This document shows, piece after piece, positions 1,772 through 47,946 of a DNA stretch of 64,000 nucleotides. How positions within the stretch are numbered: the stretch's first letter is position 1; the number at the start of each line of letters is the position of its first letter. This stretch comes from Brenneria bubanii (lineage in GTDB: Bacteria > Pseudomonadota > Gammaproteobacteria > Enterobacterales > Enterobacteriaceae). The stretch covers positions 461,531 through 525,530 of the forward strand of contig NZ_JAKMAJ010000001.1 in the NCBI RefSeq assembly GCF_022378355.1. Direction: 5' to 3'. Under the pieces are notes generated by a model that saw only the letters and a list, made by a program, of their open reading frames with translations, was not told the origin of the DNA and did not search any database. The translations under genes were made by a program, and so were the position numbers.

Positions 1772-2159
1772 GGCGTTCAGCCTTCCTCTTGAGACGCAAT
1801 GCGCCAACCAACATCAATAACCACCCGGCGAGAAAACAGAATCCGCCAATCGGCGTTACATAGACCCAGAGCTTCAGATTAGAAAGCGCCAGGCAATATA
1901 AGCTGCCGCTGAACAATACCGTGCCTAATGCCAGAAAAACGCTGCTCCAGTAAAACCACAAATTGGTACGCTGATGCATCAGAATAGACAACGCCAGGAT
2001 AGCCAGCGTGTGAAATGCCTGATACTCCAGCCCGGTACGCAACCAGGCGAGCTCCGACGTCCCCAGCGTTTTGCTTAACACATGCGAAGCGAATGCCCCC
2101 AGGGCAACAAAAATAAAACCGCTGATAGCGGAAAAAATCAGCATAAAACGACTATTCAT
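1764..2159 (-). CDS. ygdD: DUF423 inner-membrane protein YgdD
   Basis: 131 residues with four predicted membrane segments: residues about 5-25 ([18 protein letters not shown]), 50-65, 70-92 and 98-122. The [10 protein letters not shown] motif near residue 25 is characteristic of the DUF423 family. The function of the family is unknown. The gene precedes rlmM on the same strand and overlaps it by 8 bases, an arrangement conserved in enterobacteria. Confidence 0.93.
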
Positions 2160-2266
2160 TATCGATATCCGATTTGATGCCTACTCCGTAGGCGTAAATT
2201 GTCTCAAGACGGCACCCGGATCCATTCTCGCAGTTTTGTAAGGCGTATTGATTACGCCTTTTCTTC

Positions 2267-3190
2267 TCAGCGCATACCGTTATTGTAACGAAAACGAAAC
2301 TTTTCCTGCTCGCTGGCTGCCCGAGCCAGAATCCAGTGCCGAAAGGCGGCTATTTTACCCAGTTCTGCCTGGCTGTCATGACATACCAGATAAAAAGCAT
2401 TTTTACTGACCAGAACATCGTTAAAGGGGCAGACCAATCGTCCCGCTTCCAGTTCGCTCTGCGCAATCACGTTATTCGCCAATGCCACCCCCTGACCGTG
2501 GATTGCCGCCTGTAATACCATGGCGCTGTGGCTGAAGATCGGCCCTTGCTGCACATTTATCTGAACGCCTAGCTGCCGGGTATAGGCCAACCAGTCACGC
2601 CGCGAGGCATCATGCAACAACGTATGCGCGCCCAGATCGGCCGGCGTTTTCAAAGGATGATCGCCGGTTAGCAGCGCGGGCGCGCAGACGGGCAGCAGAT
2701 ACTCGGCATAGAGTTTCTCGACCCGCAGTCCCGGCCAGTTGCCGCGCCCATAGAAAATGGCGACGTCCACGTCATCCGACAGGCGATCCTCATCGCGATC
2801 CACCGCCTGAATGCGCACATCGATTCCCGGGTATTCGGCATTAAAGCTCAGTAATCGAGGCACCAGCCAGTGAATAGCGAAGCTGGGAAGCAAACTAACG
2901 GTCAGCGCGCCCTTGGCGCTACGAGACTGCAACTTGCGCGTAGCCTCATTAAGCGAAGAAAAAATTTCTTTTATATCAAGATAATAACTTTGCCCCTCTT
3001 CCGTCAGCAGCAGAGAACGATTGCGCCGACGAAACAGTTTAAGCCCCAGGAAGTCCTCCAGCGACTTGATCTGATGGCTGACCGCCGCCTGGGTGACAAA
3101 TAACTCTTCCGCCGCTTTGGTAAAGCTCAGATGGCGGGCTGCCGCATCAAATACACGCAGGGAATTGAGCGGAGGGAGACGTTTCGACAT
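2267..3190 (-). CDS. gcvA: LysR-type regulator of glycine cleavage, GcvA
   Basis: 307 residues starting MSKRLPPLNSLRVFDAAARH. The open frame extends to 3226, but the ATG at 3188-3190 matches the family. Residues about 8-65 form the winged helix (LSFTKAAEELFVTQAAVSHQIKSLE is the recognition region) and the remainder is a LysR effector domain. GcvA activates gcvTHP when glycine is abundant and represses it with GcvR when it is scarce. It also activates the divergent sRNA gene gcvB, which starts 128 bases away here as in E. coli. Confidence 0.95.
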   Translation of the reverse strand: MSKRLPPLNSLRVFDAAARHLSFTKAAEELFVTQAAVSHQIKSLEDFLGLKLFRRRNRSLLLTEEGQSYYLDIKEIFSSLNEATRKLQSRSAKGALTVSLLPSFAIHWLVPRLLSFNAEYPGIDVRIQAVDRDEDRLSDDVDVAIFYGRGNWPGLRVEKLYAEYLLPVCAPALLTGDHPLKTPADLGAHTLLHDASRRDWLAYTRQLGVQINVQQGPIFSHSAMVLQAAIHGQGVALANNVIAQSELEAGRLVCPFNDVLVSKNAFYLVCHDSQAELGKIAAFRHWILARAASEQEKFRFRYNNGMR

Positions 3191-3282
3191 GAATGAAATT
3201 CTTTTATTTCCCGATAAATAACCCATGCAGGATGGTTACTTATCTATTAGTTTTTATAATCCGAAACATTATAATTTGTCCA

Positions 3283-3311
3283 TTGAGGATGTACCAGCAA
3301 ATACCTATATT
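3283..3311 (+). promoter_or_regulatory. gcvB promoter (sigma-70 type)
   Basis: A TTGAGG -35 box (3283-3288), a 17-base spacer and a TATATT -10 box (3306-3311) end six bases before the first base homologous to GcvB. The interval to gcvA also holds CTATTAG at 3244-3250, reminiscent of the GcvA half-site CTAAT read on the other strand. Confidence 0.65.
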
Positions 3312-3317
3312 AGCGCG

Positions 3318-3508
3318 ACTTCCTGAGCCGGAACGAAAAGTGCGGAGGGGTGACCTGAAGGGCTTTTGGCTTGTGGTTGTGATGTTGTGTTTGCTATTTT
3401 CTTGTCTGCCTGGACGGAGAAGGCAGCCTGGCTGCCTTTTTCAATTTCTGTGCATTTATGTTGTCTTCCTGACTTTATTACAGCACCGCAGATGCGGTGC
3501 TTTTTTTT
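3318..3508 (+). ncRNA. gcvB: Small regulatory RNA GcvB
   Basis: The 5' end ACTTCCTGAGCCGGAACGAA matches the start of E. coli GcvB. It is followed by the G/U-rich R1 seed region (about 3362-3395, containing TTTTGGCTTGTGGTTGTGATG), which base-pairs with mRNAs of ABC amino-acid and peptide transporters. A second stem (AAGGCAGCCTGGCTGCCTTT, 3420-3439) and a 3' terminator complete the RNA at about 191 nt. GcvB is Hfq-dependent and represses transport genes under rich conditions; its transcription depends on GcvA encoded divergently. The gene lies exactly between gcvA and ygdI, as in E. coli. Identity comes from sequence and synteny together. Confidence 0.95.
3483..3508 (+). terminator. Rho-independent terminator of gcvB
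   Basis: Stem GCACCGC (3483-3489) / GCGGTGC (3494-3500) with loop AGAT, followed directly by eight T residues (3501-3508). Confidence 0.92.
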
Positions 3509-32903: not shown

Positions 32904-33590
32904 CGGACTACCTCGATAGACTTAAATGCAAAGATGACTTGATTGTTTCACACTCCCGCCAGACGGTAAACCACTGCTTGGAACAGTTATCGTTCTAATA
33001 AGAATTAGATAACCCACAGACTTAACCAAAGTTATAAACATGTAAACTTCAATACAGGCGTTTTATTCACTATTTCTGTGGACATCTTTGTGCAGAACCC
33101 ATGAAAAAGTGAGTAAAACTTATTTTTACGTTAAAAAACGCCTCGCGGATAAAAATAAAATAATCCTTTTTTTTCATAAAATTAAGCCTTTCAACAACCA
33201 CCGAATCACGCTGATATCCCGCGACTAAATCGTCGCCATCGCAATAGTGGCGAAAGATCGCACTATGTCGGTTTTATCCACAGAAGCGCCCCCCTCTTCA
33301 GGCAAAAAACAGACAAAAACAGCAAAACCCCCCTACGTCAAGGCTGTAAATCAAACCAGTGATCCATCTTTATACGGGTTATCCAAGAAATCTGTGGATA
33401 AGATGGTGTAAGATCCTGTTCATTGTTGGTGTCTACAAGTGCACAGTTTGCCAAACCAGATCCGGCGAGCCTAATCAGACGAAAAAAAACCGCTATGAAT
33501 CATGCTATTATTGAGCGTATCAACAGGCTCTACGGTTGTGCATTAATCGTTTTCAAACGTTGTATTTTTTTTGAGCGAAAAAATCAGGCT
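32904..33590. promoter_or_regulatory. Divergent rppH/mutH region with DnaA boxes and clustered GATC sites
   Basis: There is no gene in 687 bases. Two perfect DnaA boxes TTATCCACA lie at 33274-33282 (+) and 33393-33401 (-), with weaker matches at 33379-33387 and 33077-33085. An A/T-rich tract spans about 33118-33188. Four GATC sites occur within 207 bases (33256, 33361, 33412, 33459). Promoters for both divergent genes must also lie here. Confidence 0.6.
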
Positions 33591-34286
33591 ATGGATTTTA
33601 TCAATTCCCCCTCCGTTTCCACTACGCCGCCACGAAGTGAGCAGGATCTGCTGCTGCGGGCCGAATCGCTTGCGGGCTACAACCTGGCCGAGCTGGCGGA
33701 TATCGCGCGACTGCCCCTACCGGCGAATCTGAAACGGGATAAAGGGTGGATAGGCATACTGCTCGAGCTTTTTCTCGGCGCCAGCGCCGGCAGCAAGCCA
33801 GAGCAGGATTTCGCCGATATCGGCATTGAGCTGAAGACTATCCCCATCGACGAACAGGGGCGGCCGCTGGAGACCACTTTCGTTTGCGTTGCGCCGCTGA
33901 CCGGCAACAGCGGCGTCACTTGGGAAAGCTGTCACGTGCGTCACAAGCTGGCGCGGGTGCTGTGGATCCCGGTTGAAGGATCGCGGCATATTCCGCTGGG
34001 CGAACGTCGAATCGGCGCGCCGCTTATCTGGAGTCCCAGCCGGGAAGAGGAAGAGCAACTGCGGCGTGACTGGGAAGAGCTGATGGACTTGATTGTACTT
34101 GGCCGGGTTGAAAGCATCACCGCGCGCCACGGCGAGGTGCTGCAATTACGCCCCAAAGCGGCAAATAGCCAGGCATTGACGGAAGCGATTGGGGAGTTTG
34201 GACAACCGATTATGACCTTGCCCCGGGGGTTCTACCTAAAAAAAACCTTTACCGCTCCCCTGCTGGCGCGCCATTTTCTGCTGTAA
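33591..34286 (+). CDS. mutH: DNA mismatch repair endonuclease MutH
   Basis: 231 residues from the ATG at 33591. An open extension reaches 33423, but the family start is here. It has a type II restriction-endonuclease-like fold with the catalytic D..E.K in [13 protein letters not shown], the KRDKGWIG motif upstream, and the C-terminal [21 protein letters not shown]. MutH nicks the unmethylated strand at hemimethylated GATC after activation by MutS-MutL. In E. coli the next gene is ygdQ; here it is a Ter island. Confidence 0.97.
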
Positions 34287-34376: not shown

Positions 34377-34850
34377 TTACTGCGAAATATTACTTTGAGA
34401 TAACGCGGAGGTGAACTCGGCGATGCAACGATCGACTAAAAGCTCCACGGCATCACTCCTTGTGGTATCGGCAAGAATAGCGAGTCGATCGATTTTGCGC
34501 AGCACAGACATCCGCAAAGAGAGCGATACCGCCTTTTTCTTTTCCTTATCCAGTGAAACTTTGCTAACGACCTCACCGGTTTTATGCTCAATGCTTGACA
34601 CCAAGGCTTCATGCATTCTGCGAATGGTTTTCTTATCAAGAAAGCCATGCCCAACGAGCTGATAAGAGTGTGTGGCTTTGCGGTATTTTATCTCGGCAGA
34701 ATAGGTTTCCCGCAATTCCTTTAGCGCGCGAGTTAAGGTGGGCTCGGAACAGGCAAGCTGAATGATGATCTTTTTGGTGGGCACCGGCAGACCTGAACCT
34801 AGCAGGATAGCCAGCCGAAAAATACGAGCCTGTCTTGTACTGAGTTGCAT
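34377..34850 (-). CDS. terW: TerW-like tellurite-cluster regulator
   Basis: 157 residues from the ATG at 34848-34850. The N-terminal half is a winged-helix-like segment (LSTRQARIFRLAILLGSGLPVPTKKIIIQLACSEPTLTRALKELRETY, described by its ends). The C-terminal 45 residues form a ribbon-helix-helix-like motif (AVSLSLRMSVLRKIDRLA). This combination and the wording at the N-terminus match TerW of the E. coli O157 and R478 ter islands, reported to bind ter promoters. It is convergent with mutH and borders the Ter block. Identification is from recalled family sequence, so moderately sure. Confidence 0.75.
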   Translation of the reverse strand: MQLSTRQARIFRLAILLGSGLPVPTKKIIIQLACSEPTLTRALKELRETYSAEIKYRKATHSYQLVGHGFLDKKTIRRMHEALVSSIEHKTGEVVSKVSLDKEKKKAVSLSLRMSVLRKIDRLAILADTTRSDAVELLVDRCIAEFTSALSQSNISQ

Positions 34851-35207
34851 GGTTAGTGAGTGCCTACTGTCGTTTTGTGGTGGCCGATAGAACAAAAAAC
34901 ACCGCTTGTAGCCATGTTTCTCACGCAATGAAATGGTGCTGGCGCCTCTATCGGATCAATCTGCTCAGGAGCGTGGTAACAGAGCCTATCAGGCATAACG
35001 TCAATCCCAGCTAAATCAACGCCCGGAAACACAACAGACAGACCAGTATCTACCTGATAACGCAGGGTATCATGAGGTCATATCCTCTGTTTTTTAAAGC
35101 CCCGCGAGGCTTGATACTCAGACCTGGGGCGACCTGGCGCAATTTCCGGCGTAAGCCTGGAATTATACTGACTGATTGTCGAGCCCCGAATTCCACCGCG
35201 CTTCCCT
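34851..35207. other. Intergenic region between terW and the Ter metabolite operon
   Basis: No supported gene in 357 bases. It should contain the terW promoter and the end of the minus-strand operon. A weak hairpin AAGCC/GGCTT around 35096-35112 could end the operon. A plus-strand GAGG/CCTC hairpin followed by TGTTTTTT (35074-35095) is also seen. Neither is strong. Confidence 0.4.
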
Positions 35208-36164
35208 TTATTGTTGGTTTGTGAGGGTCACCAGACGCACGCCTTCCGGCGCGCCGTCCTGTGCGATGCCATAGACCTGAGCCTGCTCGAGAACCCTTGC
35301 CGCCCAGCGCCGATGGGTTGTCGGCTCACACATTGCGCCTTGCGATTTGAACACAGCCTGACTGGAGTTCAGGATCCTAAGGGCATCCTCATGATCCTCT
35401 GGAGTGATCATCAGAGCCCGCTCAATCTTTGCCACCTGGTTGGGATGAATAGCGGTTTTCCCCACCAGTCCGTGCGCCATATCGAGCGCCAACTCACGTT
35501 CCATCACGTTATGGTCATCAATGTGCTCGCAGACCGGTGAAGTCAGAGCAAAATCACGTGAGCCGAAAACGGCCACCAGCATTTTGATGACGTAGCCCAT
35601 CGGACTGTCATACAGCGTGAGATTACGCGGGCGGCGCAGCGAGATAACATTCATCAGATCGTTGCCGCCAATGCGCAGCGCAATGATGCGATCATGACAG
35701 GGATGCCCGGCCAGCGTGGCGGCGAGTTCACGCATCCGTATGACATCGAAGACATCTTCGGTTTCCAGCGTCGGCATCATGCAAAGGTGTGTATCCTGCA
35801 TGATTGCCCACCATTCCGGCAGGGAAGCAAGGGTGAATTTGGGCAGGACAAGCCCGTCGACCGGCGATAGGTCCAAAGACTCCGTCAGGTATTTACCCAT
35901 CGGTAGGTGGCGGGGACGAATAAAAACGAGCGGCCATTCGGCACCTTGCCCATCAGCCTTGGCGGAAAGTAATGCCGCCAGCACCCGTTTTAAATTTTCT
36001 ATGGCCGCAGGCACGTCGGCATCACTGACCGCATCCTCAAGACAAATGACAATGGAACGTAGCCCTTCGATTTCATTGTTCAGCACGCTTTTGGCAATAT
36101 CAGTACGCGTTGCGGGCATGTAGAGCGTAGCGCCCAGCCGGTATGGCGATAGTCTTTTTGTCAT
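35208..36164 (-). CDS. HpcH/HpaI-CitE-like aldolase/lyase of the Ter metabolite module
   Basis: 318 residues. It is a TIM-barrel CitE-like protein with the metal/substrate motifs IVICLEDAVSDAD, FIRPRHL, GLVLPKFTL, MMPTLETEDVFDV, LRIGGNDLMNVI and GKTAIHPNQV. Family members cleave or form C-C bonds using Mg2+ and a CoA-thioester or keto acid. In Ter clusters a CitE-like enzyme is part of a predicted pathway for a nucleoside-like or modified-sugar compound. It is the last gene of a five-gene operon and overlaps the preceding gene by 1 base. The substrate is unknown. Confidence 0.82.
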   Translation of the reverse strand: MTKRLSPYRLGATLYMPATRTDIAKSVLNNEIEGLRSIVICLEDAVSDADVPAAIENLKRVLAALLSAKADGQGAEWPLVFIRPRHLPMGKYLTESLDLSPVDGLVLPKFTLASLPEWWAIMQDTHLCMMPTLETEDVFDVIRMRELAATLAGHPCHDRIIALRIGGNDLMNVISLRRPRNLTLYDSPMGYVIKMLVAVFGSRDFALTSPVCEHIDDHNVMERELALDMAHGLVGKTAIHPNQVAKIERALMITPEDHEDALRILNSSQAVFKSQGAMCEPTTHRRWAARVLEQAQVYGIAQDGAPEGVRLVTLTNQQ

Positions 36165-37243
36165 CAGCGAACCTTTTTGATAATGGTGACGGCCCGATAC
36201 TGCCCGATGCGGTCGCCGACCTCAGTAATGGTGATGTTTTTTTCACGGGCTAAATACACCAACAGGGCAACGTCCTGATCATGAACCGAACGGACAAGAA
36301 CGTGTTCGGGGACCCGGCGTAAAACGGCGCGCGTGGCTTCGGCAATGCCGGGTTTAATTCGGTTAATGCTGCAAATATTGTACTCCGCGGCCAGCGACGA
36401 AATAATCAGCTCGCTCTGTGATTTCAACGGCGCGAAATCCGCAGGACTCCACTGGCTGGCGGGGATTTCATTCATATCCAGTTGGTTACGGCACTCGGCA
36501 ACGGTGTCGACCAGTAGGCGGCTGCATTCAAACTGGCGAAGGTGATCGCATTGCACGCAGCCGTGTAATCCCTCTGATGACCAGATGGATCGTGAAATCA
36601 GCCCGGATACCGGCGCGCCCATAATACCGAAGGGGATCAACCAGTCATCGTTACTGGCGGCAAGCCATGACGCGCCACAAGGGTCGGCCAGGACAACCAG
36701 CCGAGGATCTTCCGGATAGCCTGAACGTGACGCCAGAGAACGGCGAAGCTCCCCCGTAATTGCGCCCTTACCCGTCCAACCATCGACAAACACCACGCCC
36801 TCTTTGCCATGCCGGGCCTCAATCCAGTCCATCGCGGTGTCGTCAATGCCACGATCCCGAATAATGCTCACCCCATAGTGATAGGATCGTTTCCCCATAG
36901 CCCGGAGAGTCTGATGCAGCATCACGCCAAGGGGCACCCCCGCCCGGACCAAACTGACCAAGACAATCGGCGTATCGCCAAAGCGGTCTGACAGGGCTTT
37001 GGCCAACATCACCGTTTCTCTCGCCAGACGCGCGGCGCCCTGCTCCAAGGCGCGAGCGAACAGATCCAGATGCCAGCGGGTCGGTTCAGGTTCCTGACTC
37101 AGCATCTCGGAGTAATGCTTTTCGCCCGACTGAATAAGCCGTTCTTTTTGATCTACCGGCGTCATTTCCATTTCGACCGGCTGAAGAAGGAAATGCACGT
37201 CGTCAGTAAGATAGGATCCCGAAAAGGGGGTAAATGGCCGCAT
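36164..37243 (-). CDS. StiP-like phosphoribosyltransferase-fold protein of the Ter cluster
   Basis: 359 residues from the ATG at 37241-37243, 1 base after the HAD gene. The N-terminal two thirds show a PRTase-like fold: VLVSLVRAGVPLGVMLHQTL, then the PRPP-loop-like segment GVVFVDGWTGKGAITGELRR. The last about 100 residues (INRIKPGIAEATRAVLRRVPEHVLV ... EVGDRIGQYRAVTIIKKV) resemble the PELOTA-like RNA-binding domain reported for these proteins. Databases often name the family 'cysteine protease StiP'. The PRTase reading is the better one from the motifs. It likely attaches a base or another group to PRPP. Confidence 0.78.
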   Translation of the reverse strand: MRPFTPFSGSYLTDDVHFLLQPVEMEMTPVDQKERLIQSGEKHYSEMLSQEPEPTRWHLDLFARALEQGAARLARETVMLAKALSDRFGDTPIVLVSLVRAGVPLGVMLHQTLRAMGKRSYHYGVSIIRDRGIDDTAMDWIEARHGKEGVVFVDGWTGKGAITGELRRSLASRSGYPEDPRLVVLADPCGASWLAASNDDWLIPFGIMGAPVSGLISRSIWSSEGLHGCVQCDHLRQFECSRLLVDTVAECRNQLDMNEIPASQWSPADFAPLKSQSELIISSLAAEYNICSINRIKPGIAEATRAVLRRVPEHVLVRSVHDQDVALLVYLAREKNITITEVGDRIGQYRAVTIIKKVR

Positions 37244-37244
37244 A

Positions 37245-38018
37245 TTAGCTTTCTCCGAAAACATGGCGACTGATATGTTCGGCAAACTGGCTCTGTTGAG
37301 GCAGACCAAACCAGTTACACAGCTTCATAAACCGATAGTCACTCAGGCTGTCGCCCAGACCAATCACCGGAAAAACGCCGCGTTCGGCCCGCAGTTTGTC
37401 CAGCAGATACCGGGTCGCCAGGCCTTTTTCAACCGGCGTGGGCAACCACGCAATATTGTTGCTGTTGCGATGGATGTAAAAACCAGCGGTCGGAAAGCGG
37501 GTTTCGATTTCATCGCCTATGGCATAAAGTTCCTCAAGCCGGGTGCTGTCCGTATGCTTCATCACCAGATACACCGGCGTATCGTCATATTCATAATTGA
37601 TACGGGCCCACCCCTTGATGCCGCGTTCCGCCATTAGGGTGGTAATGCCCCGCTGCATGGCAAGCAGCGGTTCCCGATAGGCAGACAGGCTGGCCAGCAT
37701 CTGTGCTTTCCACTCTTCGTCAGGTTTTCCTTCCGGCGTGAGGATCACCGCACCGTGCGTAACGATGGCCCATGAGCTAAACGGAATGGTCACACGGCTG
37801 ATTTCTTCCGTCCCCCGGGCGGTGACCGGAATGAAGTCGGCGTGCTCAAGCAACCAGTCCACCAGCATGGCTTGCTCCTCGGTCATAAAACTGCGGGCAT
37901 TCAGAGTGCGGTCTAAAGCCCCCGGTCGATAAGGCTCAAGCGCCAGCTCATCCACCATTTTCCGGCGTGTCTGGAAGAGGGTATCGTCGAGGTCCGAGAG
38001 AACGACAGGCTTATTCAT
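37245..38018 (-). CDS. HAD-superfamily phosphatase of the Ter metabolite module
   Basis: 257 residues. HAD motif I is VVLSDLDDTLFQTRRK (nucleophile Asp at residue 9, acid/base Asp at 11). Motif II lies in FIPVTARGTEEI, and motifs III/IV in PVEKGLATRYLLDKL and VIGLGDSLSDYRFMKL. The large cap domain (about residues 90-190) is of the HAD-IIB (Cof/sucrose-phosphatase) type. It probably removes a phosphate from the pathway intermediate. It overlaps the preceding PRTase gene by 8 bases, which points to coupled translation. Confidence 0.82.
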   Translation of the reverse strand: MNKPVVLSDLDDTLFQTRRKMVDELALEPYRPGALDRTLNARSFMTEEQAMLVDWLLEHADFIPVTARGTEEISRVTIPFSSWAIVTHGAVILTPEGKPDEEWKAQMLASLSAYREPLLAMQRGITTLMAERGIKGWARINYEYDDTPVYLVMKHTDSTRLEELYAIGDEIETRFPTAGFYIHRNSNNIAWLPTPVEKGLATRYLLDKLRAERGVFPVIGLGDSLSDYRFMKLCNWFGLPQQSQFAEHISRHVFGES

Positions 38019-39147
38019 AAACGATCACCTCGACGACAGGCGCTACCGCTTTTAAGGCATAAAGCAGCGCGGGATCGACGCTCTCGGCGGGCGTTTCGAT
38101 ACACAACAGAATGCGGTCGAATTGCTGATGGGCGACGTTATAGACAAAATTAGGAATACCCAGTCCATAATTATCCGTAAAGGCAATCACCGACTCGATG
38201 GCGAAACCGGTGGAAATCGGCGACCGCGTTGTGCAACTGAACCTGACCTCAGCCCCCTCCATTTCCAGACGCTCGGCCAGCAGTAACGGCTCCCAAACAA
38301 ATTCCCCGGAACCCAGCACCAGAATGTTTTCTCCGGCTGATGCCGTAATTTCCGTTCCCAAATCTCTTGCCGGCGCCGCCATACCGAGACGTCCCCAGCT
38401 TTGTTTTCCCGTGATCGCTACGCTGCCTGATGCGGTGATGTTGACGTTCGGCATCACCGGAACGGGGGCATCGGTTTTTTTCTCCCAGAACCAGTCGCCC
38501 TGGGCGAGAGAAACCGGCGTAACCGGCAATGGGCACTGTTCTGTGATGGCGTTTCCACTCCAGTCGGTAAGCGTTACCGTAACGACCCGTTCTACTGCGC
38601 TCAGGCCCGCGTCGGTGCGCAGCGCGTTCAGCAGGTTAATGAAGGTGTTGCCGGTGGTGGCTTCATCATCGATAAGCACCAGAGTTCGGGCGTCGCGTAC
38701 GCGAGTCCGAAGCGCGGGATCGGTAGGTTGATAGAGCAAATGATCAGTCGCGTGTGAGTGATCTTCTTTAAATTCACACATCAATTGGCCGTCGACGGGA
38801 TGACGAGTTGAGGTCAGATAGACCACGTCGTCGAAACGCCTTAACGCCTCATCAAAAACCCCGGCCCCCAACCCAACAGCGGTTTCAGCCATGCCGATAA
38901 ACAGTACCGGCTGCGGCAAATCAGCCGGTAGCTGTTGAGCAAGTTGCCGGTAAGCAGCGCGCATAACGGCGGGAGAAATAGGAATATGTCGTCCCAGCAC
39001 TTTGCTGACAAACAGAAAAGCCCGCTTGGGATTACGGCGCTCTGCGATATCGAATAGCGAATCCAATGGCAGGGAGCCGCCGGTCGGGGTCACCGTCAGT
39101 GTCCCACCGGACAGCTCTTTACGATAGACGGCTGGTCTGTTAAGCAT
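38011..39147 (-). CDS. Orotate-PRTase-like protein with C-terminal TRSP-type domain, Ter cluster
   Basis: 378 residues. An N-terminal type I phosphoribosyltransferase fold carries LFIGMAETAVGLGAGVFDEALRR and the PRPP loop TLVLIDDEATTGNTFINL. The C-terminal domain starts near residue 235 (ITGKQSWGRLGMA) and contains ILVLGSGEFVWEPLLLAERLE, RFSCTTRSPI and a final TDNYGLGIPNFVYN block, as in the TRSP domain fused to PRTases in Ter clusters. It presumably makes an N-glycosidic bond from PRPP. It lies 2 bases from the ATP-grasp gene. Confidence 0.8.
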   Translation of the reverse strand: MLNRPAVYRKELSGGTLTVTPTGGSLPLDSLFDIAERRNPKRAFLFVSKVLGRHIPISPAVMRAAYRQLAQQLPADLPQPVLFIGMAETAVGLGAGVFDEALRRFDDVVYLTSTRHPVDGQLMCEFKEDHSHATDHLLYQPTDPALRTRVRDARTLVLIDDEATTGNTFINLLNALRTDAGLSAVERVVTVTLTDWSGNAITEQCPLPVTPVSLAQGDWFWEKKTDAPVPVMPNVNITASGSVAITGKQSWGRLGMAAPARDLGTEITASAGENILVLGSGEFVWEPLLLAERLEMEGAEVRFSCTTRSPISTGFAIESVIAFTDNYGLGIPNFVYNVAHQQFDRILLCIETPAESVDPALLYALKAVAPVVEVIVYE

Positions 39148-39149
39148 GA

Positions 39150-40232
39150 TTATACGCCCCCGACGCTGACAGGCAGATTATCGAGAATGGGGTTGTAGCG
39201 GATGACGTCGGTCATGGTGCGTACAACCGCAGGAGAGAAACTTTCTGTCGCCAGCGATTTCACCTGCGACGCATTCATCAGACCGAGCTGACGCAGCGCA
39301 AAAAAAGCAGGCAGGTTGACACCGCCGTGACGGGTATACCCGATACCGCCAGACGGCCGCATGTTGATTTCAAGCAGAACGGGTTCGCCCTGATCGTTAT
39401 CGCGCGTCTGTACATTTACCAGACCATCGGCCTGCATTATTCGGGCGCACATTTTGCCAAGCTCATAGGCGGAGCCGGATTGTTCAAGATATTGCAGCGC
39501 TCCCTCTTTACGGCGAGCGACCGCCGCCATGACGTCGCCTTTTTCAACCAGCATATCGACGGAGTATTCAGGACCAGGTAGGTAAGGCATCAGTACCAAT
39601 GGCTCAAACGCTTCCTGCCGTTCCAATGCATGCAGGTAGATCTCAGGGTGCACTTTTCGGCTATTCGGATGCGTAAACGCGGCCATCGGGGCGATGCTGT
39701 CATCAAAGCGCCAGAATCCCATGCCATAAATACCGGATACCGGTTTTACGCAGAGTAACTTTTTGTCGTCTCCTGCCTGACGATTGCTGACGATCTGGCG
39801 GCGCAGTTGATCAGCACTGTCGATACGCTGTGAAGGCACCACCGGCAGACCATGCGCTTGCATTGTATCGGCGAACTCGACCTTGTCGTCTGCCAGGGCA
39901 AACATCGCGGCGCTGGTGGCTCCGGTGGTCAGAGAAACGCCCAGAGATTCGATATCCTGACGGTGAGCTTCAAACCACTGACAGTTGCGGCCGGTATGCA
40001 GGGCCTGAACGCCAAATTGCTTCACGGTGGCGGCGATGAAATCCAAACGCTGTTCATCATCAGGCGGTTCAATCAGCGCGATATCCGCCAAAGAAAGTAT
40101 TTCATTTCGATTATGACGATGAGAGGCAATAACCGTGACCGTTTTATTGGTATTTTTAAAAAATTCTTTAATGCCTAAAATAATATCGCGCTGTGAGGAC
40201 AAACCTTCCATTAACCAAATTGCGTGACCCAT
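39150..40232 (-). CDS. ATP-grasp ligase of the Ter metabolite module
   Basis: 360 residues. It has an ATP-grasp fold: an N-terminal preATP-grasp (MGHAIWLMEGLSSQRDIIL), the central KKLLCVKPVSGIYGMGFWRF lysine/glycine-rich ATP loop, VLMPYLPGPEYSVDMLVEKGD, and the C-terminal metal-binding EPVLLEINMRPSGGIGYTRHG with the Glu-Asn pair. It should form an amide or similar bond to a carboxylate at the cost of ATP. It is the first gene of the minus-strand operon, so its leader faces the terZ promoter. Confidence 0.84.
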   Translation of the reverse strand: MGHAIWLMEGLSSQRDIILGIKEFFKNTNKTVTVIASHRHNRNEILSLADIALIEPPDDEQRLDFIAATVKQFGVQALHTGRNCQWFEAHRQDIESLGVSLTTGATSAAMFALADDKVEFADTMQAHGLPVVPSQRIDSADQLRRQIVSNRQAGDDKKLLCVKPVSGIYGMGFWRFDDSIAPMAAFTHPNSRKVHPEIYLHALERQEAFEPLVLMPYLPGPEYSVDMLVEKGDVMAAVARRKEGALQYLEQSGSAYELGKMCARIMQADGLVNVQTRDNDQGEPVLLEINMRPSGGIGYTRHGGVNLPAFFALRQLGLMNASQVKSLATESFSPAVVRTMTDVIRYNPILDNLPVSVGGV

Positions 40233-40554
40233 CGGCTTTAATTTTCCCGGAATGAGAGGACGAGAGGATTTAAGATATGAGTCTAGGGAGGCATTATATG
40301 CATGTCAATCATAATATGATGAATATAATTCCCCACGGAATTACAGGTTAATCACTGAAAAACCTAAGTTTATTACGTCAATAAATGTAAATTAAAAAAT
40401 AAATATCCAGTTAAATCACATTGTTAATTTATACCTACAAAAATAGGGGAAAAATGAGGGTTGTCGTGCAACTTCGTCATGATATGCTTTTTAAGCACAC
40501 GGATTTTTGATTTAAAAAAAATAATGGCTCAACCTATCTCTGAAGGAATAAATA
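40233..40554. promoter_or_regulatory. Divergent Ter control region
   Basis: A 322-base A/T-rich gap lies between the ATP-grasp gene and terZ. It contains a perfect dyad ATCATA-A-TATGAT (40308-40320) next to a near-repeat of it, CATTATATG (40292-40300). Promoters for both arms must lie here, and it is the natural place for a TerW or other operator. Confidence 0.55.
40461..40488 (+). promoter_or_regulatory. Probable terZ promoter
   Basis: TTGTCG (40461-40466), a 16-base spacer and TATGCT (40483-40488), about 67 bases before the terZ start. Confidence 0.5.
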
Positions 40555-41142
40555 ATGGTTTCATTAAGCAAAAACCAAACTGTTTCACTCAGCAAAGAAA
40601 CAGCATCATTAAACCAGCTTCAATTCGGTTTAGGCTGGGATCCATTAAAAAAGAAAAAAGGATTTCTAGGCAGTCTTCTGGGCGGTGGCAGCGATTCAAT
40701 TGATTTAGACGCCGGTTGCGTGCTGTTGGACCATGCCGGTAAGACCATCGATACCATCTGGTTTCGTCAGTTGAAATCAAGCTGCGGCGCCGTGGTTCAT
40801 CAGGGTGACAACCTGACGGGCGAAGGGGATGGCGATGATGAAACGATCGCCGTCGACCTTACTCGCCTGTCACCACAAGTTGAGTATCTGGCCTTCACGG
40901 TTAACAGCTTTCGTGGCCAAACCTTCAATGAAGTCGATAATGCCTTTTGCCGCGTGGTCGATCAGTCACGTAAAGAGCTGGCCCGCTACCAACTGACAGA
41001 ACAGGGTTCCCACACCGGCATCATCATCGCCTCGCTGGCGCGTAATAACGGGAACTGGGACTTCACCGCCCATGGTAAAGCCTCAACCGGCCGTACCATT
41101 GATGATATGCACGCTGACATTGTGGCTACGGTGGTACGCTAA
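40555..41142 (+). CDS. terZ: TerD-family protein TerZ
   Basis: 195 residues, start preceded by GAAGGA. A single TerD/CABP domain shows the doubled N-terminal repeat SLSKNQTVSLSKETASL, LGWDPLKKKKGFLGSLLGGGSD (a lysine/glycine-rich insertion typical of TerZ), SIDLDAGCVLLD and the calcium-site loop [14 protein letters not shown]. TerD-domain proteins bind Ca2+ and are thought to form membrane-linked sensor complexes. terZ is the first gene of terZABCDE and its stop overlaps the terA start (TAATG). Confidence 0.9.
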   Translation: MVSLSKNQTVSLSKETASLNQLQFGLGWDPLKKKKGFLGSLLGGGSDSIDLDAGCVLLDHAGKTIDTIWFRQLKSSCGAVVHQGDNLTGEGDGDDETIAVDLTRLSPQVEYLAFTVNSFRGQTFNEVDNAFCRVVDQSRKELARYQLTEQGSHTGIIIASLARNNGNWDFTAHGKASTGRTIDDMHADIVATVVR

Positions 41143-42284
41143 TGACCATGACGCCGGGGGGCAATGCCCCCGTTCCCTCGCAGGTGCTGACGGTGCGCGT
41201 TCTCTCCGGCGTCCCGGTAGACGCTTCTTCGTTCCGTCTTTATGCCTCAGGTAAAGTGCAAGGCGATCCGGATATGGTGTTTTACGGCCAGCCGGTCAAC
41301 GACGACGCCTCGGTGAAACTTGCCGGTAGCGGCACGGATACCGCCTTTACGGTCGATATCAACCGTCTTCGCCCTGAGGTGCAAAAACTGGCCTTCACGG
41401 CAACCTGTGACGGCAATATAACGCTCTCGGGTCTGAAGCACCTCTCCATTCAGGTCGAACTTAACGGCAGTGTTTTGCTGTCCGGCAATGTGGATGTATC
41501 GGGCCGTCAGGAAGCGGCGCTTATCCTCGGCGAGATATATCGCCGCAATGCGGAGTGGAAATTCCGCTTTATTGCACAGGGTTTCAATGGTGGACTAAAA
41601 CCGCTGGCGGAACATTTCGGCGTAGACATTTCAGACGCGCCGGCGCCCGAACCGACGCCGGCGCCTGCAAAAATCAGTTTGAGCAAAGTTTCCCTGACCA
41701 AGGAAAAGCCGTCGATCAGCCTTGCCAAGCGGGATAATTTTGGTGAAATCAAAATCAATCTCAACTGGAATCAGGCCAGCGTCGCTTCAGGCGGCATGTT
41801 TGGCGGCATGTTTAACAAATCAAAAGGCATCGATCTGGATCTGGGCGCATTTATCGAACTTCAGGACGGCTCCAAAGGGGTTGTTCAGGCGCTTGGAAAC
41901 ACCTTTGGCCGACTCAACTCAGAACCCTTTGTCGAATTGCAGGGTGATGACCGCACGGGACAAGTTTCCGACGGAGAGTGGTTGCGCATCAACGGGCGCG
42001 AATGGAAGAAAATCCGCCAGGTGCTGATTTATGCCTTCATCTATGAAGGCGTGGCAAGCTGGGATAAAACGGACGGCGTCGTCACGCTGCATGTTCCCGA
42101 GCAACCGCCGATAGAGACACGTTTAACAGAGGGGTCTAACCGCCACAATATGTGTGCGATCGCCCGGCTGGTGAATGACAATGGAGCCATCAAAGTTGAA
42201 CGAATCAACCAGTTCTTTGGTGGTCATAAAGAGATGGACAAAGCACTGGGCTGGGGCTTCCGTTGGTCCGCCGGCTCTAAATAA
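41142..42284 (+). CDS. terA: Tellurium resistance protein TerA
   Basis: 380 residues, near the usual 385. It has two TerD-like halves: an N-terminal one (VLTVRVLSGVPVDASSFRLYASGKV, ILGEIYRRNAEWKFRFIAQGFNGGL) and a C-terminal one beginning KISLSKVSLTKEKPSISLAKRD, joined by a proline/alanine linker (DAPAPEPTPAPA). The C-terminal calcium loop is weaker (DDRTGQVSDGEW). TerA is a soluble scaffold partner of the other Ter proteins. It is translationally coupled to terZ. Confidence 0.92.
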   Translation: MTMTPGGNAPVPSQVLTVRVLSGVPVDASSFRLYASGKVQGDPDMVFYGQPVNDDASVKLAGSGTDTAFTVDINRLRPEVQKLAFTATCDGNITLSGLKHLSIQVELNGSVLLSGNVDVSGRQEAALILGEIYRRNAEWKFRFIAQGFNGGLKPLAEHFGVDISDAPAPEPTPAPAKISLSKVSLTKEKPSISLAKRDNFGEIKINLNWNQASVASGGMFGGMFNKSKGIDLDLGAFIELQDGSKGVVQALGNTFGRLNSEPFVELQGDDRTGQVSDGEWLRINGREWKKIRQVLIYAFIYEGVASWDKTDGVVTLHVPEQPPIETRLTEGSNRHNMCAIARLVNDNGAIKVERINQFFGGHKEMDKALGWGFRWSAGSK

Positions 42285-42308
42285 TTTCAATATTTTGAGG
42301 GTAATCAA

Positions 42309-42764
42309 ATGAGTTTCTTCGACAAGGTAAAAGGCGCGTTCAATGCCGGTCGCGATGAGCTGACGAAACAGGTCGGGCGCTTTAAAAATAAAAAATTCAT
42401 GCAGGGCACGGTGGCGGTTTGTGCCCGTATCGCGGTCACCAGCGACGGCGTCAGCGCAGAAGAAAAACAAAAGATGATTGGCTTTCTTCAGGCGTCCCCT
42501 GAGCTGAAAGTGTTCGAGACTAAAGACGTGATCGCCTTCTTCAATGAACTGGTGACCAGCTTCAGCTTCGATTACGAAATCGGCAAGGGCGAAACCATGA
42601 AATACATTCTGGCGCTGAAAGATCAGCCGGAAGCTGCACAGCTGGCCCTTCGTGTTGGTATCGCCGTGGCGAAAAGCGACGGTGACTTCGATCAGGCTGA
42701 ACAGACGGCCGTTCGGGAAATTGCGCTTGCGCTTGGCTTTACTCCGGCCGAATTCGGCCTTTAA
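42309..42764 (+). CDS. terB: Tellurium resistance protein TerB
   Basis: 151 residues. A helical TerB domain contains VAVCARIAVTSDGVSAEEKQKMIGFLQ and, in pseudo-repeat, RVGIAVAKSDGDFDQAEQTAVREIALALG, with the two conserved acidic metal sites. It is cytoplasmic, membrane-associated through TerC, and shown in other bacteria to bridge TerC and cytosolic partners. Shine-Dalgarno TTGAGGGT stands upstream. Confidence 0.95.
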   Translation: MSFFDKVKGAFNAGRDELTKQVGRFKNKKFMQGTVAVCARIAVTSDGVSAEEKQKMIGFLQASPELKVFETKDVIAFFNELVTSFSFDYEIGKGETMKYILALKDQPEAAQLALRVGIAVAKSDGDFDQAEQTAVREIALALGFTPAEFGL

Positions 42765-42792
42765 TTTTTACACTCTGGCTTAAGGGCTAATT

Positions 42793-43836
42793 ATGGTATC
42801 CACGCATATTGGTTTCCCGGCAGAAACCGTCATCGTTTTTGTATTGCTGTCCGTCGGGGCGATCGTCATCGACCTGTTCATGCATCGTCATGACAAGCCG
42901 ATTTCTTTAAAAAGCGCTTCGCTCTGGACGGTGTTCTGGATTGTCGTGGCGATGGTCTTTGCTGGTTTTCTCTATATTCACCACGGGGCTGAAGTCGCCA
43001 GCCTGTTTATTACCGGTTATGCGCTGGAAAAAGTCCTGTCCGTAGATAATCTCTTCGTGATGATGGCCATCTTTTCGTGGTTCGCCGTGCCCGATAACCT
43101 GCGCCACCGCGTGTTGTACTGGGGGGTCATTGGCGCAATCGTATTCCGCGGGATTTTCGTGGCCATCGGCGCCAGCCTGCTGACATTAGGGCCCTGGGTC
43201 GAAATCGTCTTTGCCTTAGTCGTCTTGTGGACGGCGGTTATGATGCTTAAAAGCGGCGACGATGACGATGTGATTGAAGATTATTCTCAGCATATCGCCT
43301 ACCGCATGGTGAAGCGCCTCTTCCCTATCTGGCCGAAATTAAAAGGGCACGCCTTCCTTTTAAACCAGAAGGAAGTCGATGCCGAACTGGCAAAACCGGA
43401 GAACAAAGACATCAAGGTAGGCCGAGTGGGCAAAGCCGCACTCTATGCAACGCCGCTGATGCTATGCCTTGCTGTGGTGGAGCTGTCCGATGTGATGTTT
43501 GCGTTTGACTCCGTACCGGCCGTTATCGCCGTAAGTCGTGAACCACTGATCGTATACAGCGCCATGATGTTCGCCATTCTGGGTCTGCGTACCATGTACT
43601 TTGTTCTGGAAGCGCTTAAACAGTACCTTACTCACCTTGAGAAGGCCGTCATCGTGCTGTTGTTCTTCATTGGCGTGAAGCTGGGACTGAATGCAACCGA
43701 CCATCTCTGGCATCACGGCTACAATATTTCAGCCAATACCAGCCTTTTCGTGGTCCTGGGCGTCCTGGCCGTGGGGATTATCGTCAGCGTACTGTTCCCC
43801 GGAAAAACTGATGCAAAGGAAGGTAAAGAGGGTTAA
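42793..43836 (+). CDS. terC: TerC-family integral membrane protein
   Basis: 347 residues with about nine membrane segments. Signature intramembrane acidic motifs are present: ALEKVLSVDNLFVMMAIFSWF near residue 80 and VVELSDVMFAFDSVPAVIAV near residue 227. A cytosolic loop (about 165-210, acidic then basic) separates the halves. TerC proteins are linked to metal (Mn2+) handling at the membrane and anchor TerB/TerD. E. coli has the TerC relative YgdQ at this locus; this protein follows the Ter-operon TerC architecture. Confidence 0.94.
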   Translation: MVSTHIGFPAETVIVFVLLSVGAIVIDLFMHRHDKPISLKSASLWTVFWIVVAMVFAGFLYIHHGAEVASLFITGYALEKVLSVDNLFVMMAIFSWFAVPDNLRHRVLYWGVIGAIVFRGIFVAIGASLLTLGPWVEIVFALVVLWTAVMMLKSGDDDDVIEDYSQHIAYRMVKRLFPIWPKLKGHAFLLNQKEVDAELAKPENKDIKVGRVGKAALYATPLMLCLAVVELSDVMFAFDSVPAVIAVSREPLIVYSAMMFAILGLRTMYFVLEALKQYLTHLEKAVIVLLFFIGVKLGLNATDHLWHHGYNISANTSLFVVLGVLAVGIIVSVLFPGKTDAKEGKEG

Positions 43837-43887
43837 TTCCCGACACCTTCACTTTGATGATAAACGTTAACTATTGAGGATAGAACT

Positions 43888-44466
43888 ATGGGTGTATCTC
43901 TTTCTAAAGGCGGAAATGTTTCTTTAAGCAAAGAAGCGCCAACGATGAAGAATATGCTAGTCGGCCTGGGATGGGATGCCCGCTCAACCGACGGTCAGGA
44001 CTTCGATCTTGATGCCTCGGCATTCCTGCTTAACAACTCGGGTAAAGTGCGCGGCGATACCGACTTCATTTTCTACAACAACCTGAAGTCCACCGATGGC
44101 TCGGTTATGCACACCGGCGACAACCGTACGGGCGAAGGTGACGGCGATGACGAAGCGCTGAAAATCAAACTCGACCAGATCCCGGCAGACGTAGACAAGA
44201 TCGTTTTCGTCGTGACTATCCACGATGCAACCACCCGTCGTCAGAGCTTTGGGCAGGTTGCCGGCGCGTTCATCCGTCTGGTTAATGATGATAACCGGCA
44301 GGAAGTGGCCCGCTACGACCTGACTGAAGATGCATCAACCGAAACCGCCATGTTGTTCGGTGAGCTGTATCGCCACAACACGGAATGGAAGTTCCGCGCT
44401 GTCGGTCAGGGCTACGCCGGTGGACTGGCGTCAGTATGCGCGCAGTACGGCATCAACGCGTCTTGA
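43888..44466 (+). CDS. terD: Tellurium resistance protein TerD
   Basis: 192 residues. A canonical TerD domain begins [20 protein letters not shown] and continues [38 protein letters not shown] (calcium site), [18 protein letters not shown] and [21 protein letters not shown]. It binds Ca2+ and probably coats the inner face of the membrane with TerB/TerC. It is closely similar to the next gene, terE, so the pair arose by tandem duplication. Confidence 0.95.
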
Positions 44467-44563
44467 TAGTTGAAAGTGACTTTACGACGTTAGGCTTCAA
44501 CGGCAAGCAGGCGGTAACCGCCGTCTGCTTTTATCAATATTCCTTATTGCAGGAGTTTCATAA

Positions 44564-45139
44564 ATGGCAGTATCTCTGATTAAAGGCGGCAACGTATCCT
44601 TAACGAAAGAAGCACCGACCATGAATATTGCCATGGCGGGACTGGGCTGGGATGCGCGTGTAACTGATGGTGCGGACTTTGACCTCGACGCTTCGGTATT
44701 CATGGTCGGGGACGACGGCAAAGTTATTTCCGATGCGTCCTTCATTTTCTTCAACAACAAAACCAGCACCTGTGGCTCAGTAACGCACATGGGTGATAAC
44801 CGCACCGGTGAAGGCGACGGTGATGACGAGCAGGTTAAAATCGATCTGGCGAAGATCCCTGCTGAAGTGAAAAAACTGGTGTTTGCTGTGACTATCTATG
44901 ATGCAGAATCACGTAAACAAAACTTCGGCATGGTCAGCAACAGCTATATGCGCGTATTCAATAACGATAACGGCACTGAAATTGCTCGTTTTGATCTGTC
45001 TGAAGATGCGTCGACCGAAACCGCCATGGTATTCGGCGAGCTGTATCGTCACAACGCGGAATGGAAATTTAAAGCGGTAGGTCAAGGCTTTGCCGGCGGA
45101 CTGTCCGCCCTGGCTTCACAACACGGCGTAAACATTTAA
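44564..45139 (+). CDS. terE: Tellurium resistance protein TerE
   Basis: 191 residues of the TerD family: [40 protein letters not shown], calcium site [14 protein letters not shown], and the end [21 protein letters not shown]. It is the last gene of the operon, with a strong terminator 18 bases after the stop codon; terF, found after terE in other ter clusters, is absent. Confidence 0.95.
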
Positions 45140-45376: not shown

Positions 45377-46045
45377 TTACTTAAGGAGGCCTTTAATTTT
45401 GGCAAGCGGAGGATTGCGTCGCCCCCAGGCACTGTGAAAATACCGCCAGTAGGGTTCCTGTGCAGCCGCAAGCATTTCATAGTCCCCTCGGGTATCGCCC
45501 CACACACGCAGATGATATGAAGAAAGTGGTCCGTACTCGGCTTCCAACCTCTTCACCTTCTGGGCACACCGGCAATTATATCCACTTATCCGCCCCGTCA
45601 GCACGCCGTCTCTGACTTCCAAATTCGTCCCTATCAGATGTATTCCCAACTTATCGGCGAAAGGCTTGAGCACCAATGCGGGGGATGCTGAACAGATCGT
45701 CACAATGGCATCGGAGTTGACTTGCGATGCCACGGCAATCAGCCCGGAAGGCCGCATCAAACGCGTCCAGTATTTATCACAAAACTCTACGGCCTTCTTC
45801 TCCACCCACTGGGACTCAACCCCGGTGAGGAAGGTGCGAATCAGAACTTCTTTTAGTTCATCTCGGGTGACCCGGCGGCCTATGCATTTGAGAGTAGGGA
45901 TCGCCAAACGAACTAGATGCTGGGCAAACTTTTGTTTCCCAAAAGAAAAGAGCAGGAAGGGGATAAAGCTGTCACGTTTGGTAAGGGTTCCGTCGAAATC
46001 AAAGACTGACAGTGTATTATCAGTATTTACAATACCTTTAGCCAT
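45377..46045 (-). CDS. HAD-IB (SerB-like) phosphatase beside the Ter operon
   Basis: 222 residues. Motif I is LSVFDFDGTLTKRDSF (Asp nucleophile near residue 15), motif II TICSASPALVLKPFADKLG, and motif IV VWGDTRGDYEML. The small helical cap (about residues 35-110) is typical of HAD-IB enzymes such as SerB and YfhB-like phosphatidylglycerophosphatase C. It is convergent with terE and could be part of the Ter island or a core neighbour. YfhB-like PGP phosphatase is the nearest named relative I can suggest, without certainty. Confidence 0.75.
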   Translation of the reverse strand: MAKGIVNTDNTLSVFDFDGTLTKRDSFIPFLLFSFGKQKFAQHLVRLAIPTLKCIGRRVTRDELKEVLIRTFLTGVESQWVEKKAVEFCDKYWTRLMRPSGLIAVASQVNSDAIVTICSASPALVLKPFADKLGIHLIGTNLEVRDGVLTGRISGYNCRCAQKVKRLEAEYGPLSSYHLRVWGDTRGDYEMLAAAQEPYWRYFHSAWGRRNPPLAKIKGLLK

Positions 46046-46905: not shown

Positions 46906-47946
46906 ATGCTATATCACCGAATTCCCCATAGTTCTTTAGAAGTGAGCGTTCTGGGTCTTGGCACGATGACCTTCGGCGAACAAAACAGCGAAGCTGAAGC
47001 GCATGCCCAGCTGGATCACGCCATTGCCGCCGGTGTTAACCTGATCGACACCGCAGAGATGTATCCGGTACCGCCGCGCCCGGAAACCCAGGGATTGACC
47101 GAGAGCTACATTGGTTCCTGGCTGAAATCGCGGGGCGGACGTGAAAAGCTGATTCTGGCAAGCAAAGTGGCTGGTCCGGTGCGCGGTAATGATAGCGGCA
47201 TCCGCCCGCAGCAGGCGCTGGATCGAAAAAACATTCGTGACGCGCTGGATGCCAGCCTGACTCGCCTGAATACTGATTATCTCGACTTATATCAACTACA
47301 CTGGCCGCAGCGTCAAACCAACTGCTTTGGCAAACTGAATTATCAATATAGCGACGAAAAGCCGGTCGTTACCTTACTGGAAACCCTGGAAGCCCTGAAT
47401 GAACAGGTGCGGGCAGGAAAAATCCGCTATATCGGCGTATCCAACGAAACGCCCTGGGGAGTCATGCGTTATCTGCATCTGGCGGAAAAACACGACCTGC
47501 CGCGCATTGTCTCGATTCAAAATCCCTACAGTTTGCTGAACCGCAGTTTTGAGGTCGGTCTGGCGGAAATCAGTCAGCATGAAGGTATTGAGCTATTGGC
47601 CTATTCCGCACTGGCGTTCGGCACGCTGACCGGAAAATACCTTAACGGCGCGAAGCCCGCTGGCGCGAGAAATACGCTGTTCAGCCGCTTTGTTCGTTAT
47701 AGCACCCCGCATACCGAACAGGCGATTGCCGAATATGTGGCGCTGGCTCAGAGACAGGGTCTGGATCCGGCGCAAATGGCGTTGGCCTTCGTCCGTCAGC
47801 AGCCGTTTGTCGCCACCACGCTGCTGGGCGCCACGTCGGTGAAACAGCTGCAAACCAATCTCGACAGCCTGAATCTCACATTGGATAAAGAAACACTGGA
47901 CGAGCTGGAAGCGATTCACCGCCGATTCACCATCCCCGCGCCTTAA
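46906..47946 (+). CDS. tas: Aldo-keto reductase Tas
   Basis: 346 residues, the E. coli length. It is an AKR barrel starting MLYHRIPHSSLEVSVLGLGT, with the catalytic tetrad visible as DTAEMYPV (Asp, Tyr), ILASKVAGP (Lys) and LYQLHWPQR (His). The NADP(H) pocket lies in IQNPYSLLNRSFEVG and TTLLGATSVKQL. The substrate is not known; the E. coli protein was found as a suppressor of tyrosine auxotrophy. It follows ygdR after 285 bases. Confidence 0.96.
   Translation: MLYHRIPHSSLEVSVLGLGTMTFGEQNSEAEAHAQLDHAIAAGVNLIDTAEMYPVPPRPETQGLTESYIGSWLKSRGGREKLILASKVAGPVRGNDSGIRPQQALDRKNIRDALDASLTRLNTDYLDLYQLHWPQRQTNCFGKLNYQYSDEKPVVTLLETLEALNEQVRAGKIRYIGVSNETPWGVMRYLHLAEKHDLPRIVSIQNPYSLLNRSFEVGLAEISQHEGIELLAYSALAFGTLTGKYLNGAKPAGARNTLFSRFVRYSTPHTEQAIAEYVALAQRQGLDPAQMALAFVRQQPFVATTLLGATSVKQLQTNLDSLNLTLDKETLDELEAIHRRFTIPAP

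Follow-up and report, generated by a model that had tools for sequence, protein, structure and literature searches.

Five intact, tightly packed open reading frames (ORFs) on the minus strand of the plant-associated bacterium Brenneria bubanii form a faithful new copy of an already known biosynthetic operon associated with the Ter system. They lie at positions 35208-40232 of a 64,000-nucleotide stretch (the window), all where the preliminary description of this DNA had placed them. The window is the final 64 kb of a 525,530-base contig (NZ_JAKMAJ010000001.1, positions 461,531 to 525,530), and the locus is therefore, as far as can be told, chromosomal. In order, the operon encodes an ATP-grasp ligase, a PRTase_2-TRSP protein, a HAD phosphatase, StiP and a CitE-like C-C bond lyase, PRTase_2 and StiP both being of the phosphoribosyltransferase (PRTase) type. 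Its strict core is PRTase_2 plus StiP, usually with the HAD phosphatase; the lyase and the ATP-grasp enzyme are optional outer layers. With modest conviction, we favor a pathway of phosphoribosyl pyrophosphate (PRPP)-dependent ribosylation followed by dephosphorylation of the glycoside, in which the lyase and ATP-grasp enzyme would act late and the product would work with the metal-linked proteins TerC and TerD.

The features that mark the known operon are all in place: PRTase_2-TRSP and StiP-PELOTA occur together, the HAD, lyase and Ter-type ATP-grasp genes share their operon, and terZABCDE (40555..45139, plus strand) adjoins it divergently. From the ATP-grasp gene through to the lyase gene the junctions are a gap of 2 bases, an overlap of 8, a gap of 1 and an overlap of 1, in agreement with the gaps of 1-2 and overlaps of 1-8 bases described earlier; these figures assume that StiP begins with the ATG at 37243, since the TTG given for it in the list, at 37309, is only the mechanical first start. 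The active-site motifs, previously called intact, are indeed kept across divergent relatives, as seen for HAD residues D9, D11, T66, K198, D223 and D227 (34/34), lyase residues E43, D44, R83, K109, E134 and D169 (28/28), ATP-grasp residues K163, E288 and N290 (17/17) and the PRPP-loop residues of both PRTase_2 and StiP. The ATP-grasp enzyme, named as such in the preliminary description, matches PF15632 and is nearest to carbamoyl-phosphate-synthase-like proteins. Among the relatives found, the nearest StiP is that of Lonsdalea, at 89% identity.

A strict core and its optional companions

Across 249 Pseudomonadota genomes, StiP and PRTase_2 exceed their cut-offs in the identical seven, a coincidence with a chance probability of ~1e-13 if the genomes are taken as independent, which they are not fully. 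The HAD profile also matches seven genomes, namely six of the StiP genomes and, as a fragment, G043; it does not find the phosphatase in G114, the remaining StiP/PRTase_2 genome. TerD is present in all seven and in 30 others. Lyase matches above 250 bits fall in four of the seven and ATP-grasp matches above 130 bits in two, in each case in no other genome of the 249. Excluded from these counts are the weak lyase (110/249) and ATP-grasp (235/249) matches at E 0.001, both being broad families, as well as matches below cut-off to StiP (2 genomes) and PRTase_2 (12 genomes).

The gene maps of 54 StiP loci, which are not independent (12 come from Xenorhabdus) and some of which lie on short contigs, place PRTase_2 in 53, the HAD gene in 49, the lyase gene in 42 and the ATP-grasp gene in 22. 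The sole StiP locus without PRTase_2 (L054) is a fragment. Every one of the 22 ATP-grasp loci also has the lyase, which stands without ATP-grasp in 20 of its 42 loci; because the ATP-grasp gene occurs only where the lyase is, and the lyase often without it, the pattern fits late steps. A need for the complete set of five genes is not supported, since the lyase and ATP-grasp genes are absent from many otherwise intact loci. Separating the strict core from the optional steps is new here, and it points to the genes with which reconstitution should begin.

Plasmids and pathogens commonly carry ter genes, and we found no function in print for the companion enzyme operon. StiP homologues occur on 2568 of 72,556 plasmid records and in 3 of 50,697 phage records; in wider samples, StiP scores above cut-off in 10 of the 197 genomes taken from the order and in 8 of the 274 from the class. 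Of the 5426 complete E. coli genomes, 957 match the locus in part, none across 80% of it at that sensitivity. The block is not a chance assembly, for it is found again in other genera and on plasmids, and phages carry its core.

Some loci deserve separate mention. In an uncultured Cedecea, two ORFs share the StiP sequence between them (L030 9935-11079), either through a real break or through a sequencing error. In Xenorhabdus hominickii the locus appears on two contigs (L018, L022) with identical gene map and coordinates. A very divergent adjacent PRTase_2/StiP-like pair (L097 8571-10473) has the loop DGWTSGG and has partly lost the L7Ae helix motif; no HAD, lyase or Ter match was found within 19.6 kb of sequence there.

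Core chemistry and the nature of the product

The presence of two PRPP-type transferases, anticipated in the preliminary description, is upheld by their conserved loops and by predicted PRTase folds; as to the loss of PRPP-binding geometry that was to count against the proposal, the fold is kept in both models. In structural comparison with VIA-align, whose lists do not exclude families absent from them, the PRTase_2 model resembles adenine PRTase, while in the StiP model a PRTase fold is joined to an L7Ae-like domain and CriT is the top match. A Foldseek search with the StiP model ranked unrelated models and pyridoxal phosphate enzymes at the top (E from 4e-4, root-mean-square deviation ~19, TM ~0.2), and these were dismissed as chance. 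The database name of StiP would make it a cysteine protease, and its C229 (25/29) does lie near H227 (28/29). We give this reading hardly any credence and have rejected it: C229 is the best cysteine column and is not invariant, and the predicted PRTase fold carries a conserved PRPP loop.

In the pathway that we favor, PRTase_2 would ribosylate an acceptor, probably base-like, with PRPP, and StiP would carry out a second PRPP-dependent transfer of ribosyl-5-phosphate, its L7Ae-like domain perhaps holding RNA or the substrate. The HAD phosphatase would then remove the sugar phosphate of the glycoside formed. In fuller versions of the operon, that of the window included, two late steps may follow: formation or cleavage of a C-C bond in an acyl moiety by the CitE-like enzyme, and the joining of an acid to an amine by the ATP-grasp enzyme. 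TerC and TerD, a membrane system linked by family to divalent metal ions, would be the partners of the product. We infer the substrates, the order of the steps and the metal link.

Several observations weigh against this scheme. The HAD gene, not found in 5 of the 54 loci nor in G114, is evidently not strictly required. The next-best lyase match, broken and scoring 99 bits, falls in a genome that has no StiP (G024). The nesting of ATP-grasp within lyase loci represents few independent events, as the StiP tree shows four changes for ATP-grasp and five for the lyase, and among the 20 loci with a lyase but no ATP-grasp gene, two (L043, L054) are truncated or in fragments. The model of the TRSP domain is poor, the putative metal link comes from family membership only, and the literature consulted names neither a substrate nor a product for the pathway.

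The phosphatase can be placed more closely. No Pfam family matches it at E 0.01, and NCBIfam HAD-IIB matches only below cut-off. A profile of 20 operon HADs matches three structures deposited under the name trehalose phosphatase (6d3v, 6d3w and 6cj0) at E ~1e-89. Mannosyl-phosphoglycerate and sucrose phosphatases come next among the solved proteins, at E ~2e-5, and the names of all these relatives agree with the sugar-phosphate type predicted earlier. The HAD of the Ter operon on the Pseudomonas plasmid pPUV-5 (L053) matches 6d3v over its full length (E 5e-161, 93% identical, 18 of 251 residues differing), and it contains only two cysteines, equivalent to the Cys85 and Cys231 named in an extra-chromosomal trehalose 6-phosphate (T6P) phosphatase of P. 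aeruginosa for which phosphatase activity was shown (PMC6838324, in excerpt). In the same excerpt, T6P is named as substrate for the nematode enzymes, and the bacterial enzyme was assayed in the T6P-phosphatase panel. We infer from sequence likeness that the P. aeruginosa enzyme, the three PDB entries and the operon HAD are of one kind; placing the operon phosphatase in a family that has been crystallized and assayed is new here.

Both the near-identity of the plasmid copy to a protein filed as trehalose phosphatase and the inclusion of the P. aeruginosa enzyme in that panel would suit an operon concerned with trehalose, its HAD being a true T6P phosphatase. We regard this as improbable. The operon has no trehalose-phosphate synthase, its HAD does not match PF02358, and the genome's sole synthase match and sole PF02358 match are an otsA-otsB pair on contig C15; because the host has this pair of its own, trehalose is an unlikely substrate of the pathway. 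The operon HAD was also rejected as a housekeeping OtsB, on the same absence of a synthase from the operon and for want of a PF02358 match.

The choice of glycosidic bond is more finely balanced. That Ter comparative work had proposed a nucleoside-like compound, as stated earlier, is confirmed by papers that cite it (PMC7843439, PMC8115787 and PMC7824862, all in excerpt). On that proposal, which we consider possible though less likely than not, both PRTases would form N-glycosidic bonds and the HAD phosphatase would free the nucleoside. The idea reportedly goes back to a 2012 analysis by Anantharaman. Against it, the StiP loop has no second acidic residue (G155 in 28/29), the top structural match of the StiP model is CriT and not a nucleobase PRTase, and the nearest solved relatives of the HAD are, by name, glycoside-phosphate phosphatases. 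CriT transfers ribose-5-phosphate from PRPP to a hydroxyl (PMC10299916, in excerpt). With an O-ribosyltransferase domain as the top match of StiP and glycoside-phosphate phosphatases as relatives of the HAD, an O-riboside is possible besides a nucleoside, although PRTase_2 is adenine-PRTase-like in its model. Here StiP would be a CriT-like PRPP-dependent O-ribosyltransferase and the HAD would remove the 5-phosphate, so that the product or part of it would be a ribofuranoside; an RNA putatively bound by the L7Ae domain could serve as acceptor. This we think rather unlikely, for the second chain of the CriT protein scores 10.6, level with HPRT at 10.5, no Bcs3 sequence is picked up by a profile of StiP for E values up to 1, and the phosphatase paired with CriT bears a largely helical cap, unlike the operon HAD, which is IIB-type as judged by sequence only, from NCBIfam and its solved relatives (the HAD-IB gene at 45377 was not compared). 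More speculative still is the full form of the idea, in which the product is an O-linked ribofuranoside and not a nucleoside, StiP is a free-standing CriT-like ribosyltransferase steered by its L7Ae domain, possibly to RNA, and the plasmid "trehalose-phosphate phosphatase" is its partner. The O-ribosylation alternative is nonetheless new here and testable, and the links of StiP to known PRPP chemistry and of the phosphatase to its solved, assayed family offer concrete substrates to try.

The surrounding Ter locus

Table 1. Features of the Ter locus in the window
Feature	Position	Strand	Basis
ATP-grasp ligase, Ter family (PF15632), operon gene 1	39150..40232	-	Pfam 130.7 bits, far above cut-off
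PRTase_2 + TRSP protein (PF15609+PF12500)	38011..39147	-	Pfam far above cut-off; canonical PRPP loop IDDEATTGNT, loop motif ExHSHA
HAD-IIB phosphatase, family of Pseudomonas "trehalose phosphatase" 6d3v/6d3w/6cj0	37245..38018	-	profile match E ~1e-89
StiP (PF11202+PF15608), PRTase fold with PRPP loop VDGWTGKG and C-terminal L7Ae/PELOTA domain	36164..37243	-	Pfam far above cut-off
CitE-like C-C bond lyase (PF15617), last operon gene	35208..36164	-	Pfam 365.9 bits, far above cut-off
terW-like regulator gene, downstream of operon	34377..34928	-	homologue at same place in enteric loci; name from position and PMC7843439 (in excerpt)
Operator-like palindrome ATCATAnTATGAT	40308..40320		touches -35 box of five-gene operon (TTGACA, minus strand, 40308-40303)
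terZ, terA, terB, terC, terD, terE	40555-41142, 41142-42284, 42309-42764, 42793-43836, 43888-44466, 44564-45139	+	Pfam TerD, TerB, TerC
HAD-IB (phosphoserine-phosphatase-like) gene, wider locus, adjoins terE	45377..46045	-	NCBIfam match and presence in related loci

The ter locus is flanked by what we take, by eye, to be mutH-like (33423-34286) and aldo/keto-reductase-like (46906-47946) genes. The product of the terW-like gene has no match in the Pfam search, and no PADLOC model (2023 library) matches any of eight proteins at E 0.001.

The preliminary description had called the operon complete. This holds for the divergent five-gene operon and not for the locus, since a second phosphatase gene, the HAD-IB gene, lies beyond it and belongs to the Ter locus although outside the five-gene block. 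On the Pseudomonas plasmid the HAD-IB gene lies inside the operon (L053 12015-12743). In a comparison of 21 genomes (21 of a set of 26 loci), it is strongly matched in 12 of 12 that bear ATP-grasp versus 0 of 9 from Xenorhabdus. A strict module of ATP-grasp plus HAD-IB was rejected, as HAD-IB relatives stand beside StiP in five loci without ATP-grasp (L084, L085, L086, L088, L089).

An Na/Ca exchanger lies near the core in eight loci (L040, L041, L047, L084, L085, L086, L088, L089), and no lyase, ATP-grasp enzyme or TerC-family protein is found in the stretches examined of any of them. Of the 54 StiP loci, 38 encode a TerC-family protein: the window-type profile recognizes 34, and another 4 have the DUF475 type. 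The lyase accompanies it in 37 of the 38, the exception being phage ME3; eight further loci show neither exchanger nor TerC-family protein. This hints that the exchanger can replace TerC, both being, by family, putative divalent-metal membrane proteins. The pattern is statistically weak: the exchanger state changes only three times on the StiP tree, with 2-3 independent pairs with the lyase and a sign test not <0.25, and the exchanger profile was built from four of the eight loci that it then found. The tree itself is partly unsure owing to long branches (L097, L050 and others), and two TerC comparisons on it were discarded because L050 and L096 had been coded TerC-less when both carry a DUF475/TerC-type protein.

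Between the divergent operons, an alignment of 12 intergenic regions, that of the window and those of 11 loci chosen from the set of 26 related ones, shows the palindrome ATCATnnnATGATTGAC in every one, with three variable central bases; it runs into the operon -35 box, and a promoter-like site is predicted for the five-gene operon at this palindrome. A search for direct repeats there found none. As a sequence pattern, the conserved palindrome is in line with the putative TerW site proposed in Pectobacterium (PMC7843439, in excerpt).

Comparison with known systems

The window lyase shares CitE-type motifs with the RipC/CitE lyases, and its nearest solved relative is a citrate-lyase-family structure, 3qll ("citrate lyase"; E 2e-14), which we take to be RipC. 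It differs in scoring 38.5 bits against a RipC cut-off of 375, and no coenzyme A-activation gene is among the five. Bcs3 (CriT plus CrpP), from the capsule system of Haemophilus influenzae type b, likewise couples a PRTase-fold transferase to a HAD phosphatase acting on ribosyl-5-phosphate; it is, however, one fused polymerase whose HAD has a mostly helical cap, and the excerpted text describes no L7Ae domain (PMC10299916).

Much closer are the Ter loci themselves, here again as described in the accessible excerpts. Pectobacterium versatile has a locus of 18 genes in four or five operons, in which terZABCDE and a five-gene operon of uncharacterized genes (OA04_37930-OA04_37890) are transcribed divergently; terW is close by, and putative TerW sites lie in the region that separates the two (PMC7843439). 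The Klebsiella ter cluster has its putative biosynthetic set, predicted to yield a nucleoside-like metabolite, opposite terZABCDEF and then a HAD gene, the set numbering 14 genes (PMC8115787). The window's recognized complement is the five-gene operon, terZABCDE, the terW-like gene and the HAD-IB gene (no search was made for terX, terY or others). A version of the operon is also carried by jumbo phage ME3 (PMC7824862). In this Acinetobacter phage, vB_AbaM_ME3 (L050), PRTase_2, HAD and StiP are consecutive and accompanied by a TerD gene and a DUF475/TerC-family gene, whereas the lyase and ATP-grasp enzyme were not found by profile within the 21 kb examined. An NAD synthetase gene and one for an Appr-1-p processing protein are found a few genes away from its Ter locus (1028-3359). 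The P. aeruginosa T6P phosphatase, for its part, is filed and assayed as a trehalose enzyme, with no mention of a Ter operon in the excerpted text (PMC6838324), yet, taken as the enzyme of 6d3v, 6d3w and 6cj0, it is of the same HAD family as the window enzyme by full-length profile match, and its 93% identical counterpart on pPUV-5 stands in a Ter operon.

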